Source of the DNA: Asticcacaulis machinosus
GTDB lineage: Bacteria; Pseudomonadota; Alphaproteobacteria; Caulobacterales; Caulobacteraceae
Assembly: GCF_028550435.1 (NCBI RefSeq)
Contig: NZ_JAQQKV010000002.1
Span: 682,001-746,000, forward strand
Direction: 5' to 3'
Length of the DNA stretch: 64,000 nt
In this document: piece by piece, positions 18,614-30,339 of the stretch
How the letters are laid out: each line of letters starts with the position of its first letter
Position numbering within the stretch: position 1 is the stretch's first letter
Translations under genes and position numbers: made by a program
Notes under the pieces: generated by a model
Told to the model about the DNA's origin: nothing
The model's database searches: none
The model's input: only the letters and a program-made list of their open reading frames with translations

Positions 18614-19483
18614 TTAAATCCCGCCTAAACGACCTGTGCGTTTCTCGTTCAACAAACTAATTATCGCGGCTGAGGTTTCTTCGATACTGCGACGGGTGAC
18701 ATCGATCACCGGCCACTCTTTACGCTCAAAAAACCGGCGGGCGGCGATGATCTCATTTCGGACGGCCTCGGTATCAGTATAGGTCGACGGCCGGTCGTCA
18801 TTGTTGAGCGACAGCAGCCGGTTTTTGCGGATCGAAATCAGCCGCTCCGGTGAGGCAATCAGGCCAACAATCAAGGGTTCGGTCAGATTATCGATTTCTT
18901 CGGGCAGGGGCCGGCCCGGCACCAGCGGAATATTAGCCGCCTTGATGCCGCGGTGAGCCAGATAGATGCAGGTTGGTGTCTTTGAGGTACGCGATACCCC
19001 GACCAGAATGACCTCAGCCTGAGCCAGACGGTCGGCCAGAGCGCCGTCATCATGAGCGATGGCATAGTTCAAGGCTTCGATACGCTCGAAATACTCATTA
19101 TCAAGATTATGCTGAGCACCGATCCGCTTGGAGACCGCCGCCCCCAGATAGCGCGAAAACGCCACCACCATCGGATCAAGTACACCAATCGCCGGAATAT
19201 CCAATTCCCGGCAGCGGATTTCCAGATTGGTGCGCAATTCAGAATCCACAATCGTATGCAGCACAATGCCCGGAAAGCTTTCGATCTCGACCAGCGCCCT
19301 ATCAAGCTGCTTCGGTGAACGGATCAGCACATAGATATGTTCAATCGGTAAAATGCCTTCAAAACGGGCCGCAGCCGCCTTAGCCAGAGCGTTAAGCGTT
19401 TCGCCTGTGGAATCCGAGACCAGATGGACATGAAAATAGGTGCCTATCTTAGAGGATAAGGTTTTCAGGCTGTCCGAGGTCAT
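18614..19483 (-). CDS. DUF299 bifunctional kinase/phosphorylase (PEP synthase regulatory protein PSRP family)
   Basis: The family phosphorylates and dephosphorylates PEP synthase or pyruvate phosphate dikinase in response to ADP and phosphate. The 289-residue length is normal. Recognisable parts are VHLVSDSTGETLNALAKAAA (about 18-37), the nucleotide P-loop ILVGVSRTSKTPTCIYLA (about 151-168) and the later LIASPERLISIRKNRL. The gene borders the predicted origin, exactly as the equivalent Caulobacter gene borders Cori opposite hemE. The upstream 484 bases hold CtrA and DnaA-type elements that may also control this gene. Confidence 0.9.
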   Translation of the reverse strand: MTSDSLKTLSSKIGTYFHVHLVSDSTGETLNALAKAAAARFEGILPIEHIYVLIRSPKQLDRALVEIESFPGIVLHTIVDSELRTNLEIRCRELDIPAIGVLDPMVVAFSRYLGAAVSKRIGAQHNLDNEYFERIEALNYAIAHDDGALADRLAQAEVILVGVSRTSKTPTCIYLAHRGIKAANIPLVPGRPLPEEIDNLTEPLIVGLIASPERLISIRKNRLLSLNNDDRPSTYTDTEAVRNEIIAARRFFERKEWPVIDVTRRSIEETSAAIISLLNEKRTGRLGGI

Positions 19484-19520
19484 AAGATCAGGCTTTCAAA
19501 AATATATCTGTGTACCGAAT

Positions 19521-19530
19521 TTGGGGAAAA
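19521..19530 (-). promoter_or_regulatory. DnaA W-box-like element 1 (TTGGGGAAAA)
   Basis: The minus strand reads TTTTCCCCAA, which contains the six-base W-box TCCCCA reported as a weak DnaA site in Caulobacter Cori. The same ten bases recur at 19593-19602 and, inverted, at 19633-19642, which argues against chance. Confidence 0.6.
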
Positions 19531-19592
19531 CCCGCGTATAAGTTCGTGCGTAATTCCCCCGTCAAGTCAAGCGCCACTCACCTCCCCTCTGA

Positions 19593-19602
19593 TTGGGGAA
19601 AA
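19593..19602 (-). promoter_or_regulatory. DnaA W-box-like element 2 (TTGGGGAAAA)
   Basis: Together with the inverted copy at 19633 it forms a 12-base inverted repeat GATTGGGGAAAA (19591-19602) / TTTTCCCCAATC (19633-19644). Both arms are preceded by the direct repeat CCCTCTGATT. This organised pair looks like a binding platform rather than a transcription terminator. Confidence 0.6.
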
Positions 19603-19632
19603 GGATTAAGATATCCTGCAAGCGCCCTCTGA

Positions 19633-19642
19633 TTTTCCCCAA
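19633..19642 (+). promoter_or_regulatory. DnaA W-box-like element 3 (TTTTCCCCAA)
   Basis: Plus-strand copy of the same decamer, containing TCCCCA. It is the right arm of the 12-base inverted repeat with the copy at 19593. Confidence 0.6.
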
Positions 19643-19685
19643 TCCTGCGATCTGGGGGTTTTATATCGAGCCCACTGTGAGTAAG

Positions 19686-19700
19686 TTAATCTTTCATTAA
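19686..19700. promoter_or_regulatory. CtrA binding box A (TTAA-N7-TTAA)
   Basis: TTAA at 19686-19689 and TTAA at 19697-19700 are separated by exactly seven bases, the Caulobacter CtrA consensus; the right half continues as TTAACC. By analogy CtrA bound here would block initiation in swarmer cells and could act on the hemE promoter. Confidence 0.75.
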
Positions 19701-19727
19701 CCCTGTATATTTACCTCCCGTTAAGAA

Positions 19728-19742
19728 TTAAGAATTTTTTAA
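19728..19742. promoter_or_regulatory. CtrA binding box B (TTAA-N7-TTAA)
   Basis: TTAA at 19728-19731 and 19739-19742 with the exact seven-base spacer GAATTTT. An extra TTAA at 19721 lies just before. The GANTC methylation site at 19744-19748 is directly adjacent, so CcrM state could influence the same segment. Confidence 0.75.
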
Positions 19743-19748
19743 GGATTC

Positions 19749-19763
19749 CTAATATTTGGTTAA
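19749..19763. promoter_or_regulatory. Probable degenerate CtrA box C (CTAA-N7-TTAA)
   Basis: CTAA (19749-19752), seven bases, TTAA (19760-19763): one mismatch from the consensus, in phase with the two perfect boxes upstream (centres about 21 and 42 bases apart). Confidence 0.45.
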
Positions 19764-19967
19764 TTATCCCGCCTTTTCACAGGCTGTGAAACATAAATTT
19801 TTCATTAATTTCGCACTGTGAAAAACCCGTGATAAGCGCGGGCGTGCGCTAAATTGTCCCGTTCATTAAGCCACCTACTACCACTGCTTCCTTTTATTAT
19901 TTTATTATGTCATTGGAGCCCATATCCGGATAATACGGCAGACTTGACCCAGATAGTTGTGGCAGAT

Positions 19968-21011
19968 ATGACGATTGAACCTTCCCCGACCCTTAAGGCG
20001 CCGCTTCTCAAAGCCTTAAATGGCCAGACCCAAGCCATACCCCCGGTATGGTTTATGCGTCAGGCCGGACGCTACCTGCCAGAGTACAAAGCCCTACGCG
20101 CCACCACGCCTGATTTTATCTCATTCTGCCTCAATCCGGAGAAGGCGGCTGAGGCCACTTTGCAGCCGATTAGGCGCTTTGGATTCGATGCGGCGATTTT
20201 ATTCTCCGACATTCTGGTCATTCCACAGGCCTTAGGTCAAAACGTAGCCTTTGAAGCCGGTGAGGGGCCGGTGCTTGGAGAACTACCCGCGTTAGAGGCC
20301 ATGCGCGATCTGGCCGGGCAGGCGGGCATACACCTTAAAAATGTCGGTGAAACCCTGATGCGGGTGAGGTCAGCACTGGATGCTGATAAGACGACGCTGA
20401 TCGGGTTTTGTGGCGGGCCGTGGACCGTCATGACCTACATGCTCAATGGTCGCAAAGCGCAGGATCGCACCCTGATCCGCGCCTTTGTCTATGACAATCC
20501 GGTCTATGTCGCGCAACTGATGGATATCGTTATCGAAGCCTCGGCCCATTACCTGAAGATGCAGGCCGATTCCGGTGCGCAGGTGTTGAAAATCTTTGAA
20601 AGCTGGGCGGAAGGTCTGCCCGATCCTTACTTTAACGAACTGATCATTGAGCCGCACAAAAAGCTGATCGCACGGGTGAGGGAACTTGGCGTGACCTTAC
20701 CCATCATTGGTTTTCCGCGCGGGTCTGAGGTCCGGCTGTTTGATTACCTTGCAGCGGTCAATGTCGAGGCTCTGGCGCTTGGTACCGCCACGCCGCTGAA
20801 ACTGGGTCGTGACTTACAAAAATTAAAACCAATCCAGGGCGCGCTCGATCCCGTAGTGTTAAGATCAGGCGGGCAGGCGCTCGATGCCGCGATCGACCGG
20901 TTACTTGAGGCATGGGGGCAGGGGCCTTACATCTTCAATCTGGGTCACGGTATCTTTCTGGATACGCCGATTGCCCATGTCGAAAATGCACTGAAACGGA
21001 TCAGAGGCTGA
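19968..21011 (+). CDS. hemE: Uroporphyrinogen decarboxylase
   Basis: Converts uroporphyrinogen III to coproporphyrinogen III in haem synthesis. I start at the ATG at 19968, giving 347 residues, the usual length; an earlier TTG at 19854 would add 38 residues of origin DNA. The signature near the N terminus, PPVWFMRQAGRYLPEYKALR, includes the substrate-binding Arg pair. Other core parts are FSDILVIPQALGQNVAFEAGEGP, FCGGPWTVMTYM, IGFPRGSEVRLFDY and the C-terminal FNLGHGIFLDTP. The stop overlaps the hemH start (TGATG). In Caulobacter hemE transcription is coupled to the origin and to CtrA; the boxes upstream suggest the same. Confidence 0.96.
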   Translation: MTIEPSPTLKAPLLKALNGQTQAIPPVWFMRQAGRYLPEYKALRATTPDFISFCLNPEKAAEATLQPIRRFGFDAAILFSDILVIPQALGQNVAFEAGEGPVLGELPALEAMRDLAGQAGIHLKNVGETLMRVRSALDADKTTLIGFCGGPWTVMTYMLNGRKAQDRTLIRAFVYDNPVYVAQLMDIVIEASAHYLKMQADSGAQVLKIFESWAEGLPDPYFNELIIEPHKKLIARVRELGVTLPIIGFPRGSEVRLFDYLAAVNVEALALGTATPLKLGRDLQKLKPIQGALDPVVLRSGGQALDAAIDRLLEAWGQGPYIFNLGHGIFLDTPIAHVENALKRIRG

Positions 21012-24594: not shown

Positions 24595-25938
24595 GTGTTT
24601 CACGTGAAACATACGATTTTTGCTCTGGCCAGCGCACAGGGCCGGGCGGGCGTGTCAGTTATCCGCATTTCTGGCCCGCAGGCGTTTGAGGTGGTCACGG
24701 CTCTACTGGGTCGTTTACCAAAGCCGCGTTTTGCCACTTATGGCGCGTTGACCTGGCAAGGCGACCTGATCGATAAAGCGCTGGTGCTGGTCTTTAAAGG
24801 CCCGAACAGTTTTACCGGTGAAGACTGTGCCGAACTTCATGTGCATGGTTCGCGGGCGGTTCTGGATCGGCTCTATCATATATTCAACGAGGTGGGTCTG
24901 CGTCACGCCGTGGCCGGTGAATTCTCCCGGCGGGCATTTGAAAACAACAAACTGGATCTGACCCAGGCCGAAGCTATTGCTGATCTGGTCGATGCGGAAT
25001 CCGAAGCCCAGAGACAGCAGGCGCTGACGCAACTGGACGGCGGGTTGAAGGTTCAGTACCAGACCTGGCATGGTGATCTGCTAAAAATTCTGGCGCACAT
25101 TGAGGCGCTGATCGATTTTCCGGACGAGGATATTCCGCAGCAACTGGCTGATCAGGTGCTGGGTGAAATCATCACCCTGAAGTCCGAAATCGGGCGAGCG
25201 ATCAATGACTCGTGTAAGGGCCGCCAAATTCGCGAAGGCTTCCGCATCGCGATCTTAGGTAAACCCAATGCCGGAAAGTCGAGCTTGTTTAACGCGCTTC
25301 TGCAAACTGATGCGGCTATAGTGACACCCATTGCCGGCACAACGCGTGATGTTATTGAATCCCATATTCATATCGGTGCCTATAGCGCCCTGATCTATGA
25401 TACGGCTGGCTTGCGTGAAACTGATGATGTGGTGGAATCCGAAGGCATCCGGCGCGCGCGCATCAGGGGAGAGCAGGCAGACCTGCGTATCTGGGTTATC
25501 GATAGTTCTGAACCACTTTCTGACCAACAGCCCGAGTTACAAAGCGGTGATTATCTGGTGTTGAACAAGGCCGATCGGTCACCGGCGGCAACACGCGATG
25601 CGATCAAGCAAACGCTCGTTGGGTTGGGCCTCAATATTTTTGAGACCGATCTGACAACCGAGCAGGGCGTGAAAGACATTCGGCAGTCGCTGGAAAGCCA
25701 TCTGGAACAGGCCCTGTCCCTGTCGAGCTTCCCGGCAGCGACCCGCGAACGGCACTTTGAACGCCTACGGGATATCGACCTCAGTCTGGAGCGGGCCTTG
25801 GGGGTTGGGTTTCAGGTGCCTGAACTGATGGCCGAAGATATCCGCCAAGCCATGAGCGGATTTGATGCCCTTTATGGCCGCACAGATGTAGAGCAGGTAC
25901 TGGACCATATTTTCTCAAATTTCTGTATCGGCAAATAA
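24595..25938 (+). CDS. mnmE: tRNA uridine-5-carboxymethylaminomethyl GTPase MnmE
   Basis: GTPase that, with MnmG, makes cmnm5U34 in certain tRNAs. The 447 residues give the N-terminal tetrahydrofolate domain (IFALASAQGRAGVSVIRISGP), the embedded G domain with G1 GKPNAGKSSLFN (about 223), the G2 region GTTRDV, G3 DTAGLRET, G4 NKAD, and the C-terminal FCIGK with the catalytic Cys. The GTG at 24595 directly follows the upstream stop and starts inside parS, so the protein begins (M)FHVKH; a second GTG at 24604 is also possible. There is no Shine-Dalgarno upstream, so coupling to the preceding gene is likely. Next to mnmG as usual. Confidence 0.95.
   Translation: MFHVKHTIFALASAQGRAGVSVIRISGPQAFEVVTALLGRLPKPRFATYGALTWQGDLIDKALVLVFKGPNSFTGEDCAELHVHGSRAVLDRLYHIFNEVGLRHAVAGEFSRRAFENNKLDLTQAEAIADLVDAESEAQRQQALTQLDGGLKVQYQTWHGDLLKILAHIEALIDFPDEDIPQQLADQVLGEIITLKSEIGRAINDSCKGRQIREGFRIAILGKPNAGKSSLFNALLQTDAAIVTPIAGTTRDVIESHIHIGAYSALIYDTAGLRETDDVVESEGIRRARIRGEQADLRIWVIDSSEPLSDQQPELQSGDYLVLNKADRSPAATRDAIKQTLVGLGLNIFETDLTTEQGVKDIRQSLESHLEQALSLSSFPAATRERHFERLRDIDLSLERALGVGFQVPELMAEDIRQAMSGFDALYGRTDVEQVLDHIFSNFCIGK
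24596..24611. promoter_or_regulatory. parS site 1 (TGTTTCACGTGAAACA)
   Basis: Perfect 16-base centromere palindrome bound by ParB and used for chromosome segregation. It lies across the mnmE start and encodes the FHVKH stretch. It is about 4.9 kb from the predicted origin, within the distance seen for parS in Caulobacter (around 8 kb). Confidence 0.95.
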
Positions 25939-25953: not shown

Positions 25954-25969
25954 TGTTTCACGTGAAACA
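25954..25969. promoter_or_regulatory. parS site 2 (TGTTTCACGTGAAACA)
   Basis: An identical 16-base palindrome in the 138-bp gap between mnmE and mnmG. It is the only one of the three not within coding sequence. Confidence 0.95.
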
Positions 25970-27951: not shown

Positions 27952-28601
27952 TGAGTGACAGTGTACCTATGACGCCTGAACAGATGGTGTCGCATCTGGT
28001 GTTTCACGTGAAACATGAGGCCATCGCTGATCTTACCCGCTTTCAACAGGTATTGGCCGATAAGAACGAGGTCATGAATCTGGTTGGGCCTGCCACGGTG
28101 CCGCACTATTGGTCGCGGCATGTGCTCGATTCCGCCCAGTTACTCAACCACGCGCCGGAGGCTAAAGTCTGGGCTGATCTGGGCGCGGGGGCAGGGTTCC
28201 CCGGCGTGGTACTGGCCATACTTTTGAAGCACGCCGAACCGTCAGACATCAAACCACATGTCTATCTGATCGACAGCCTGACCAAGCGCTGCCTGTTCCT
28301 GAGCGATGTCGTGAAAATGCTTGATCTGCCCGCCACCGTTATCAACGACCGGGCTGAGAATATTAAGCTCAAAGTCGATGTGGTAACGGCCCGGGCCATG
28401 GCGCCTTTACCAAAACTGCTGGGCTTTGCTGAGGGCTTTTTTTCACGTGGTGCTGAAGGATGGTTTCTGAAAGGTGAAAATGTGGATAGCGAACTGATTG
28501 AGGCCGAAAAGGCTTGGCAATTCGCCTCAAACAAGTATTCATCTCTAAGCGACCCGCGCGGGCGTGTGGTGCATATCCGGAGTTTGAAACATGTCAGATA
28601 A
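27951..28601 (+). CDS. rsmG: 16S rRNA (guanine527-N7)-methyltransferase RsmG (GidB)
   Basis: SAM-dependent methylase of G527 in 16S rRNA; loss confers low-level streptomycin resistance in several bacteria. The 216 residues include the N-terminal helix, KNEVMNLVGPATVPHYWSRHVLDSAQL (about 46-70), and the SAM site VWADLGAGAGFPGVVLAILL, followed by TARAMAPLPKLLGFAEGFF. The third parS lies inside, at residues 17-22 (VFHVKH), in frame exactly as in mnmE. It overlaps mnmG at its start and parA at its end, so the mnmG-rsmG-parA-parB group is continuous. Confidence 0.95.
   Translation: MSDSVPMTPEQMVSHLVFHVKHEAIADLTRFQQVLADKNEVMNLVGPATVPHYWSRHVLDSAQLLNHAPEAKVWADLGAGAGFPGVVLAILLKHAEPSDIKPHVYLIDSLTKRCLFLSDVVKMLDLPATVINDRAENIKLKVDVVTARAMAPLPKLLGFAEGFFSRGAEGWFLKGENVDSELIEAEKAWQFASNKYSSLSDPRGRVVHIRSLKHVR
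28000..28015. promoter_or_regulatory. parS site 3 (TGTTTCACGTGAAACA), inside rsmG
   Basis: The same perfect palindrome, 50 bases into rsmG. The ParB nucleation sites thus span about 3.4 kb (24596-28015), immediately before parA-parB. Confidence 0.95.
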
Positions 28602-29409
28602 GGCCATCCAAAAACCCCGGGTCCTTGCCATCGCCAACCAAAAAGGTGGCGTAGGCAAAACCACGACCGCGATTAATCTGGGTACAGCACTGGCCGCGGT
28701 GGGTGAACGCGTGCTGCTGATCGATCTCGACCCGCAGGGTAATGCCTCGACAGGCCTGGGTGTGCCCCGGTCTGCCCGCACCACCACCATCTATGACGTG
28801 ATTGTTGATCAGCAACCGATCGGCGATATGGCGATTAAGACCCTGGTGCCGGGCCTCTATATCCTGCCGTCCGACCCCGATCTGTCAGGTGTTGAAATCG
28901 AACTGGGGCAGGCCGAGCGCCGATCCTATCGTTTGCGCGATGCTTTGGATCGCATGGCGGAATTCGAGATGCTCTATTCCTACGTGCTGATCGACTGCCC
29001 GCCGTCGCTTAACCTGTTGACCGTCAATGCCATGTCGGCGGCCGATGCGGTTCTGGTGCCGCTGCAATGTGAGTTTTTCGCGCTCGAAGGTCTGACGCAG
29101 TTGATGCGCACCATAGATCTGGTGCGTGGCAGCCTTAATCCCAAGCTTGAGATACAAGGGATTGTGCTGACCATGTATGATCGCCGTAATGCTCTGTCAG
29201 GGCAAGTGGCGCAAGATGTGCGTGGTCACTTCGGTGAAAAGGTCTATGAGACGGTTATTCCCCGTAATGTGCGGGTGTCTGAGGCGCCATCGTTCGGCAA
29301 ACCGGCGCTGATTTATGACCTTAAATGTTCGGGCAGTCAGGCCTATCTAAAGCTGGCCAAAGAAGTGGTCACCCGTGAAAAACGCCGTAAGCGCCAACTG
29401 GCGGCCTAA
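28591..29409 (+). CDS. parA: Chromosome partitioning ATPase ParA
   Basis: Walker ATPase that, with ParB-parS, moves the origin region toward the opposite pole. The 272 residues start MSDKAIQKPRVLAIANQKGGVGKTTTAINL. The deviant Walker A KGGVGKTT is at about 18-25, then LLIDLDPQGNASTGLG and the Walker B DYVLIDCPPSLNLLT, typical of ParA/Soj. Its start is inside the rsmG end (11-base overlap). In Caulobacter ParA is essential; it also interacts with PopZ and MipZ, none of which lies in the window. Confidence 0.96.
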   Translation: MSDKAIQKPRVLAIANQKGGVGKTTTAINLGTALAAVGERVLLIDLDPQGNASTGLGVPRSARTTTIYDVIVDQQPIGDMAIKTLVPGLYILPSDPDLSGVEIELGQAERRSYRLRDALDRMAEFEMLYSYVLIDCPPSLNLLTVNAMSAADAVLVPLQCEFFALEGLTQLMRTIDLVRGSLNPKLEIQGIVLTMYDRRNALSGQVAQDVRGHFGEKVYETVIPRNVRVSEAPSFGKPALIYDLKCSGSQAYLKLAKEVVTREKRRKRQLAA

Positions 29410-29430
29410 CCCAACTTTAATGGAATTGAT

Positions 29431-30339
29431 ATGTCAGAAAAACACAGGGGTTTGGGCCGGGGTTTGTCAGCGCTGTTGGGGGAAGCCGCAACACCCGTGC
29501 CGGTCACACCGCCGCAGGCTGAAACCAAATCGGCGGACGCACCGGTAGGGCCGGTTTCAATGAGCCTGGAGCAGCCGATTGAGTTGCTGAAACGCAATCC
29601 GGATCAGCCGCGTAAGGTTTTCAGTGACGCTGAAATCGACAGTCTGGCGGCATCGATACGTGAAAAAGGTGTTTTGCAGCCCATTCTGGTGCGCCCGATT
29701 GCAGGGACGAATGAGTTTCAGATCATCGCCGGTGAGCGCCGTTGGCGGGCCGCCCAAAAAGCGGGCTTGCGCAATGTGCCGGTGCTGGTGCGGGATCTGG
29801 ATGATCTTGAGGTGCTGGAAATCGGCATTATCGAAAACGTCCAGCGCGAAGACCTGAACGCTATCGAAGAAGCCAAGGCCTATAAGGTGCTGATGGAACG
29901 CTTTGGGCGCACGCAGGATGCGGTGGCGCAGGTGGTGTCCAAGAGCCGCTCGCACATCGCCAATATGTTGCGTCTGTTGAACCTGCCCGAAAGTGTGCAG
30001 GATCATGTTCTCGAAGGCCGTTTGTCCGCCGGTCATGCGCGCGCCATTGCCACCGCATCCGATCCGGCAGTCTTGGCTGAACTGATCATCGAAAAGGGCC
30101 TGTCGGTGCGTCAGGCTGAGGTTCTGGCTCGACAGCAAGGGCAGGGCACGACGTCTAAAACCTCAAAACCTCGGCATTGGGACGATCCGGACACCAAGGC
30201 CTTGCAGCAGGATTTGCAGGATGTTCTGGGCCTTAAGGTGCGGCTGGACGATAAGGGCGGTAAGGGCGAGTTGCGCCTGAGCTATGCGTCGCTGGAGCAG
30301 CTTGATGAGGTCTGCCGCCGCCTGATGAAGATGTCGTGA
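29431..30339 (+). CDS. parB: Chromosome partitioning protein ParB (Spo0J, parS-binding CTPase)
   Basis: CTP-dependent clamp loading at parS. The 302-residue protein has the conserved Arg-rich start (RGLGRGLSALLGEA), the CTP-binding ParB domain (NPDQPRKVFSDAEIDSLAASI, IIAGERRWRAAQKAG, IENVQREDLNAIEEA), the helix-turn-helix AQVVSKSRSHIANMLRLLNLP, and a C-terminal dimerisation region ending DEVCRRLMKMS. It is 21 bases downstream of parA. Three perfect parS sites lie 1.4-4.8 kb upstream. A repeat element of the AAGAACC type begins two bases after its stop. Confidence 0.96.
   Translation: MSEKHRGLGRGLSALLGEAATPVPVTPPQAETKSADAPVGPVSMSLEQPIELLKRNPDQPRKVFSDAEIDSLAASIREKGVLQPILVRPIAGTNEFQIIAGERRWRAAQKAGLRNVPVLVRDLDDLEVLEIGIIENVQREDLNAIEEAKAYKVLMERFGRTQDAVAQVVSKSRSHIANMLRLLNLPESVQDHVLEGRLSAGHARAIATASDPAVLAELIIEKGLSVRQAEVLARQQGQGTTSKTSKPRHWDDPDTKALQQDLQDVLGLKVRLDDKGGKGELRLSYASLEQLDEVCRRLMKMS

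Follow-up and report, generated by a model that had tools for sequence, protein, structure and literature searches.

The intergenic gap between hemE and the DUF299 (COG1806) gene of Asticcacaulis machinosus is well supported, judging from its sequence and genomic setting, as a chromosome replication origin, which would be of the CtrA-regulated hemE-COG1806 type. What is distinctive in this putative Asticcacaulis origin is a compact array of CtrA boxes with a fixed 42- and 21-bp spacing. The best explanation of the whole, which we regard as probable with a good margin of confidence, is that DnaA binds weak sites and opens AT-rich DNA, and that CtrA~P on boxes a, c, and d holds initiation off. 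The gap lies within the window, that is, the 64-kb stretch analyzed here (positions 682001 to 746000 of contig C2, which is 1.15 Mb long, in an assembly of 3.77 Mb and 10 contigs). The origin class is taken as defined in PMC1914354; in its terms, the gap occupies the hemE/COG1806 position, coincides with a switch in strand composition, and contains both CtrA boxes and DnaA boxes above chance, and ctrA and dnaA are present in the genome. The features are collected in Table 1.

Table 1. Features of the putative origin and its surroundings (window positions)
Feature	Position	Strand	Remark
DUF299 (COG1806) gene	18614..19483	-	PEP synthase regulator family
Putative chromosome origin, DUF299 (COG1806)-hemE intergenic gap	19484..19967		484 bp
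W1, TTGGGGAAAA	19521..19530	+	9-mer TTTTCCCCA on - strand
W2, TTGGGGAAAA	19593..19602	+	in left arm of 12-bp inverted repeat
W3, TTGGGGAAAA inverted	19633..19642	-	in right arm of inverted repeat
D1, DnaA-like 9-mer TTACTCACA	19676..19684	-	adjoins CtrA box a
CtrA box a, perfect TTAA-N7-TTAA	19686..19700		perfect in 25/25 Asticcacaulis gaps
CtrA box b, 1 mismatch	19710..19724		in 6/25 gaps, mainly the window's clade
Least stable 40 bp of window (boxes c-d), candidate unwinding segment	19727..19766
CtrA box c, perfect in window	19728..19742		at most 1 mismatch in 24/25; 41-42 bp from a
GANTC (GATTC), CcrM-type site	19744..19748		sole GANTC in gap
CtrA box d, 1 mismatch	19749..19763		21 bp after c in 25/25
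Genus core TTTGGTTAATTATCC	19755..19769	+	once per genome in 21/25 Asticcacaulis
Module I, head-to-tail DnaA-like 9-mers TTATCCCGC and CTTTTCACA	19764..19781	+	abuts box d
Opposed DnaA-like 9-mer TGTTTCACA	19785..19793	-	forms palindrome TTTCACAGGCTGTGAAA
CtrA box e, 1 mismatch	19794..19808		same offset from d (+45) in 14/25, 6 bp nearer (+39) in 5/25
D3, TTTTTCACA	19817..19825	-	fits TTWTNCACA
Module II, degenerate DnaA-like pair TTGTCCCGT and TCATTAAGC	19854..19871	+	90 bp after module I
hemE-side AT tract, second candidate unwinding segment	19891..19910
hemE	19968..21011	+
parS TGTTTCACGTGAAACA	24596..24611
parS	25954..25969
parS	28000..28015
parA and parB genes	28591..30339	+	named by eye from translations

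Genomic setting of the hemE/DUF299 gap

The first-pass annotation had read the hemE/DUF299 synteny as the sign of an origin, and it was right to do so: the arrangement is that of the hemE-COG1806 (DUF299) type, and this gene pair flanks the experimentally mapped C. crescentus origin, according to PMC1914354. It had also predicted a switch of skew at the gap, which we found both in the window and along C2. Within the 64-kb window, GC skew turns at the gap, with a cumulative minimum at 20137, 170 bp past it. Further skew values came from the two largest of the 10 contigs, each sampled as 20 stretches of 10 kb. On C2, all but one of the 13 stretches to the left of the gap are negative (the odd one out, at 420 kb, has +0.015), and all 10 to its right are positive; parts of the window enter into both counts. 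On C1, positive values in the first five stretches (barely so in the fifth, at +0.004) give way to negative ones in 14 of the following 15; the turn from plus to minus, at 0.3 to 0.4 Mb, probably marks the replication terminus region.

A search for parS-like sites at up to one mismatch returned three genome-wide, all of them perfect, 4.6 to 8.0 kb from the gap and beside parA and parB; PMC6399470 places Caulobacter parS about 8 kb from Cori. Of the three sites, one lies within the opening codons of mnmE and another near the beginning of a gidB-like gene (names given by eye), and in both parS is read as the peptide FHVKH. The palindrome TTTCACAGGCTGTGAAA within the gap was considered as a parS variant and rejected, as the perfect sites stand at 24.6 to 28.0 kb and its spacing differs. 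The dnaA gene is 102 kb away from the gap, and DnaA, CtrA, GcrA, and IHF-alpha are all encoded in the genome at scores passing the NCBIfam cut-off. At the protein level, DUF299 of the window matches its Asticcacaulis endophyticus counterpart (locus L001) with 100% identity, whereas the surrounding DNA is only 87% identical; the window thus comes from a close relative of A. endophyticus. Rfam models at gathering scores gave no match within the 64-kb window. Among titles and the beginnings of abstracts, we found no description of an Asticcacaulis origin; Shaheen 2009 and Taylor 2011 could contain related comparisons.

A compact CtrA array conserved in Asticcacaulis

Boxes a and c are the two perfect TTAA-N7-TTAA matches that had been noticed at the outset, and they are the only two within the 64-kb window. 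One near match had been named beside them; it exists, but more are present, and the gap holds five boxes at one mismatch or fewer, spanning 123 of its 484 bp from a to e. The single GANTC reported for the gap was confirmed. Among 3,000 dinucleotide shuffles of the gap, two perfect CtrA boxes arose in 3 and five boxes at one mismatch or fewer in 7. Across the genome the CtrA pattern occurs at chance (44 sites, versus 42 for the reversed pattern), so that clustering and conservation carry the weight of the argument.

Gaps were extracted from 25 Asticcacaulis genomes, including the four without an exact copy of the 15-mer TTTGGTTAATTATCC, which was absent from all 174 other Caulobacteraceae genomes searched. 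The 25 gaps are all distinct; compared with the gap of the window, 4 show 90 to 92% identity and 20 show 47 to 54%. In this set, box c is perfect in 16 gaps, has one mismatch in 8 and two in 1, and box d has one mismatch in 23 and two in 2. The distance from a to c is 42 bp in 16 gaps and 41 bp in 9, and that from a to d is 62 to 63 bp. The helical phase is imperfect at the +45 and +39 places of box e and at the 41-bp spacing of the nine genomes. Six gaps lack box e. Five of these (L087, L097, L099, L103, and L105) have a box located 40 bp ahead of a, as though the outer box had switched sides, and the sixth (L089) has neither. Outer boxes thus change position, and the total stays roughly constant.

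Conservation within the boxes differs from one to the next. In box a, the TTAA letters score 1.00 and the N7 spacer 0.57, below the gap mean of 0.65, which is the pattern expected of CtrA recognition. The corresponding values are 0.95 versus 0.75 in box c, and 0.88 and 0.89 in box d, where the equally conserved spacer suggests a further constraint on the stretch besides CtrA recognition. Of the 60 invariant columns of the alignment, 32 fall in the 42 element positions (hypergeometric probability of 7e-25); the genomes are related and the elements were chosen partly after the alignment had been seen, so this value is descriptive.

DnaA-like sites and comparison with relatives

TTWTNCACA is the DnaA-box consensus; in the gap of the window only D3 fits it, and the other DnaA-like sites deviate. 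The decamer TTGGGGAAAA, which contains the full DnaA-like 9-mer TTTTCCCCA, occurs there in three copies, one inverted, as originally described, and the 12-bp inverted repeat with its accompanying direct repeat is likewise real: the arms are GATTGGGGAAAA (19591-19602) and TTTTCCCCAATC (19633-19644), and CCCTCTGATT precedes W2 and W3 at 19585 and 19625. Three of the seven decamers in the 3.77-Mb genome thus lie within 122 bp. In 3,000 dinucleotide shuffles of the gap, three TGGGGA appeared in 13 and three decamers in none. Both copies of CCCTCTGATT (19585-19594 and 19625-19634) read GTGATT in the close relatives L083 and L095 and are unchanged in L091 and L098, which looks like a concerted change or a shared constraint.

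Anchored on TTATCC (with the offsets of L088, L105, and L106 left out), TGGGGA of W1 is found at -242 to -244 in 15 of the 25 genus gaps and TCCCCA of W3 at -128/-129 in 13. Among the 10 gaps in which TGGGGA is absent from the standard offset, 7 have TCCAC[CG] in the W1 slot (scored by eye), which argues that W1 is a DnaA site. The TGTG of D1 (19676-19679) and that of D3 (19817-19820) are invariant in all 25 gaps, and the whole 9-mer TTTTTCACA is kept in 18. The strict head-to-tail 9-mer pattern is found in 23 of 25 Asticcacaulis gaps, versus 0.04 in shuffles. The 9-mers of module I depart from TTATCCACA at 1 to 4 positions in the genus set of 25 (in the window, 3 each), and those of module II do so at 4 and 5 in the window; the frame of module II is uncertain by one base in most of the other rows. 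Between D3 and the hemE-side tract, all 25 gaps share an invariant TGCG in the 19845-19858 region, and TT and C farther on; this is perhaps a hemE promoter or a part of module II.

That the gap lacks a consensus G-box, as had been stated, holds for the genus: there is none in the 25 Asticcacaulis gaps, either exact or at one mismatch. At two mismatches the whole window has 188 matches (shuffle mean of 162; as many in 1 of 100 shuffles), only two of which are in the gap, at 19785 on the minus strand and 19945 on the plus strand. The R-box at one mismatch occurs 12 times in the window, never in its gap, and is present in 11 of the 25 genus gaps. The IHF pattern WATCAANNNNTTR is absent from 10 Asticcacaulis gaps and likewise from 19 Caulobacter gaps, so it cannot discriminate.

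For the family, the best 80 of 570 matches were used, a choice that leans toward near relatives; both flanking genes are kept in 79 of these 80 loci, with gaps of 407 to 665 bp, and the contig ends in the remaining one. The gaps were grouped as Asticcacaulis (n = 25), Caulobacter (n = 19), Brevundimonas (n = 16), and Phenylobacterium/other (n = 35), the last three assigned by record title and the last of all being mixed, with a Caulobacter-like layout in L024, L040, and L077 and a Brevundimonas-like one in L027, L050, L063, and L080, among others. CtrA boxes at one mismatch or fewer average 4.20 per gap in Asticcacaulis (0.53 in shuffles), 3.37 in Caulobacter (0.09), 1.91 in Phenylobacterium/other (0.08), and 1.75 in Brevundimonas (0.01), contrary to the first-pass annotation, which had counted fewer CtrA boxes here than in Caulobacter. 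Its suggestion that the inverted W pair sets this origin apart did not hold either. Convergent TGGGGA..TCCCCA occurs in 16 of 19 Caulobacter, 15 of 25 Asticcacaulis, 13 of 35 Phenylobacterium/other, and 2 of 16 Brevundimonas gaps, so the pair does not separate Asticcacaulis from Caulobacter.

Cori of C. crescentus is a hemE-COG1806 origin with five CtrA sites, two G-boxes, and five W-boxes; in this layout the G-boxes (TGATCCACA) lie near or overlap CtrA sites, and CtrA sites are found along the whole origin. The Asticcacaulis gap resembles it in its flanking genes, its TTAA-N7-TTAA boxes, its TCCCCA-type sites including a convergent pair (three TCCCCA W-boxes in the window's gap), its AT-rich tract on the hemE side, parS within about 8 kb, and the encoded CtrA and DnaA. 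It differs in that the CtrA boxes are compact and fixed at 42/21 bp, whereas those of Caulobacter are spread over the gap, in the absence of a G-box (an exact one is present in 14 of 19 Caulobacter gaps and in no other group), and in a weakest segment that lies in mid-gap, not at the hemE end. The layout does differ from that of Caulobacter, as had been anticipated, but through the compact spacing and tandem DnaA-like 9-mers without G-boxes and not in the way proposed.

Brevundimonas shares other parts of the plan. Two central CtrA boxes separated by 52 to 66 bp occur in 12 of its 16 gaps, as against 14 of the 35 Phenylobacterium/other gaps and 2 of the 19 from Caulobacter; in 11 of the 16 Brevundimonas gaps the distance is 60 to 64 bp, close to the a-d distance in Asticcacaulis, and TT[AG]TCCCCG follows the second box in 9 of the 12 paired gaps, as TTATCC follows box d. 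However, Brevundimonas has no box c, averages fewer boxes per gap, and has its weakest DNA at the hemE end. Its second DnaA-like half stands one base nearer (+13) in 7 of 16 gaps (0.34 expected). No Brevundimonas gap has a strict half at +14, and the count of strict head-to-tail patterns is 0 of 16, versus 10 of 19 in Caulobacter (0.12 expected) and 12 of 35 in Phenylobacterium/other (0.04 expected). In Brevundimonas L058, L059, L061, L070, and L071, neat tandem 9-mers, e.g., TTATCCCCG and TCATCCCCG, follow the central pair at a distance of about 92 bp, next to the hemE-side AT tract. If one mismatch to TT[ATG]TCC[AC]C[AG] is tolerated, direct pairs of this box at 89 to 94 bp are found in 17 of the 19 Caulobacter gaps, 12 of the 16 from Brevundimonas, 15 of the 35 from Phenylobacterium/other, and 8 of the 25 from Asticcacaulis, where no more than 0.17 are expected in any group; exact boxes alone give 7, 8, 6, and 0, respectively. 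A tree of 44 hemE proteins, built with no outgroup, places Asticcacaulis and Brevundimonas together (100/100).

The BUS of Bacillus subtilis and other bacteria combines tandem DnaA boxes with DnaA-trios, and the published search asks for at least three consecutive trios within 16 bp after a DnaA-box pair. The tandem 9-mers recall this arrangement, as does module II, which adjoins CTA-CTA triplets and an AT tract; however, in the window CTA CTA is followed by CCA, so that no run of three trios exists in that frame, and module II is degenerate there.

Duplex stability and the proposed role of the CtrA array

Nearest-neighbor stability was calculated over 40-bp windows, with the TTATCC-anchored offset of L106 left out. 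The segment under boxes c and d ranks first for instability among the 63,961 such windows of the 64-kb stretch, and only 174 of 398,440 windows from the sampled genome stretches are as weak or weaker. In Asticcacaulis the weakest 40 bp lie centrally in 22 of 25 gaps and in Phenylobacterium/other in 7 of 35, but in none of the 19 Caulobacter or 16 Brevundimonas gaps; in the rest they lie at the hemE end (19/19 Caulobacter, 16/16 Brevundimonas, and 28/35 Phenylobacterium/other). They overlap a CtrA box in 22 of 25 Asticcacaulis, 14 of 19 Caulobacter, 1 of 16 Brevundimonas, and 6 of 35 Phenylobacterium/other gaps. It is therefore the central place, and not the CtrA box on the weakest DNA, that is peculiar to Asticcacaulis; CtrA boxes are AT-rich, and part of this overlap is built in.

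According to the Caulobacter model in PMC4468827 and PMC4285127, DnaA acts at weak sites from which CtrA excludes it. The best-supported reading of the Asticcacaulis gap follows this model and adds a strictly spaced, compact array that abuts a tandem pair and covers the weakest DNA. DnaA would bind the weak sites, namely the outlying 9-mers of the TTTTCCCCA kind (W1 to W3), D1, D3, and above all the tandem pair of module I, from which it would open the AT-rich DNA nearby. CtrA~P, presumably bound cooperatively, would sit on roughly the same side of the helix at boxes a, c, and d, and farther out at e. Bound in this way, it would cover the DNA around D1, the margin of module I, and the most readily melted segment, and this coverage would hold initiation off in the nonreplicating cell.

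Where the duplex would open is less clear-cut. The hemE-side AT tract remains a good unwinding candidate too, and there is about an even chance that the origin uses the usual hemE-side segment, as in its relatives, and that the central c-d weakness is a by-product of the AT-rich CtrA boxes. The hemE-end position of the weakest DNA in Caulobacter, Brevundimonas, and most Phenylobacterium/other gaps favors this, as does the Asticcacaulis hemE-side tract itself, which is nearly as weak as the center (mean of -1.129 versus -1.089 per step), and the c-d spacer is not unusual in AT content (0.55 versus 0.54 for the gap). Yet the weakest 40 bp are central in nearly all of the Asticcacaulis gaps, beside the tandem DnaA-like boxes, and the N7 letters of box c are AT-rich too (0.73). 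A role of the CtrA boxes mainly in transcription, from hemE or an origin promoter, with no direct block of DnaA or melting, is unlikely: CtrA is a transcription regulator for which such a role at Cori is discussed in PMC4468827, and the outer box positions turn over between species, but boxes a, c, and d adjoin D1 and module I, 205 to 282 bp from the hemE start codon, and the invariance is centered on D1, module I, and the CtrA sites.

The W2/W3 inverted repeat could also be taken for a hairpin or cruciform in place of two DnaA sites, since none of 200 shuffles folds as well as its single strand (z = -3.34). We consider this improbable, because the full decamer pair is found only in the window and L001 among 10 gaps and because the TCCAC[CG] of the W1 slot is what DnaA recognition predicts. 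Least credible, to the point of being very nearly dismissed, is an ordinary divergent DUF299/hemE promoter region with no origin function; the gap must indeed hold the promoters of both genes, but the skew switch, the parS linkage, the clustered and conserved DnaA and CtrA sites, and the experimental Caulobacter origin in the same gap (PMC1914354) all argue against it.

Within the preferred reading of a CtrA-repressed origin, a more specific and more doubtful proposal is that in Asticcacaulis the unwinding element is itself clamped by CtrA: on c and d, in phase with a, CtrA~P may keep the duplex shut as well as exclude DnaA, and would thus hinder melting directly. The relatives have in common DnaA-like pairs spaced by about 92 bp and a weak tract on the hemE side; Asticcacaulis would have added a second one, central and CtrA-covered. 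Such a clamp may be a shared theme set at different places, given how often a CtrA box falls on the hemE-side weak tract in Caulobacter, and the spread-out Cori may be one among several solutions. At Cori, the way in which CtrA stops replication is discussed in terms of DnaA exclusion or transcription; Asticcacaulis, with a compact, strictly spaced array that covers the weakest DNA, offers a natural contrast to Caulobacter and predicts which changes of spacing should matter. The alignment of 25 genomes and the DnaA-like pairs spaced 91 to 93 bp in several genera also describe Caulobacteraceae origins where the usual DnaA-box consensus fails.
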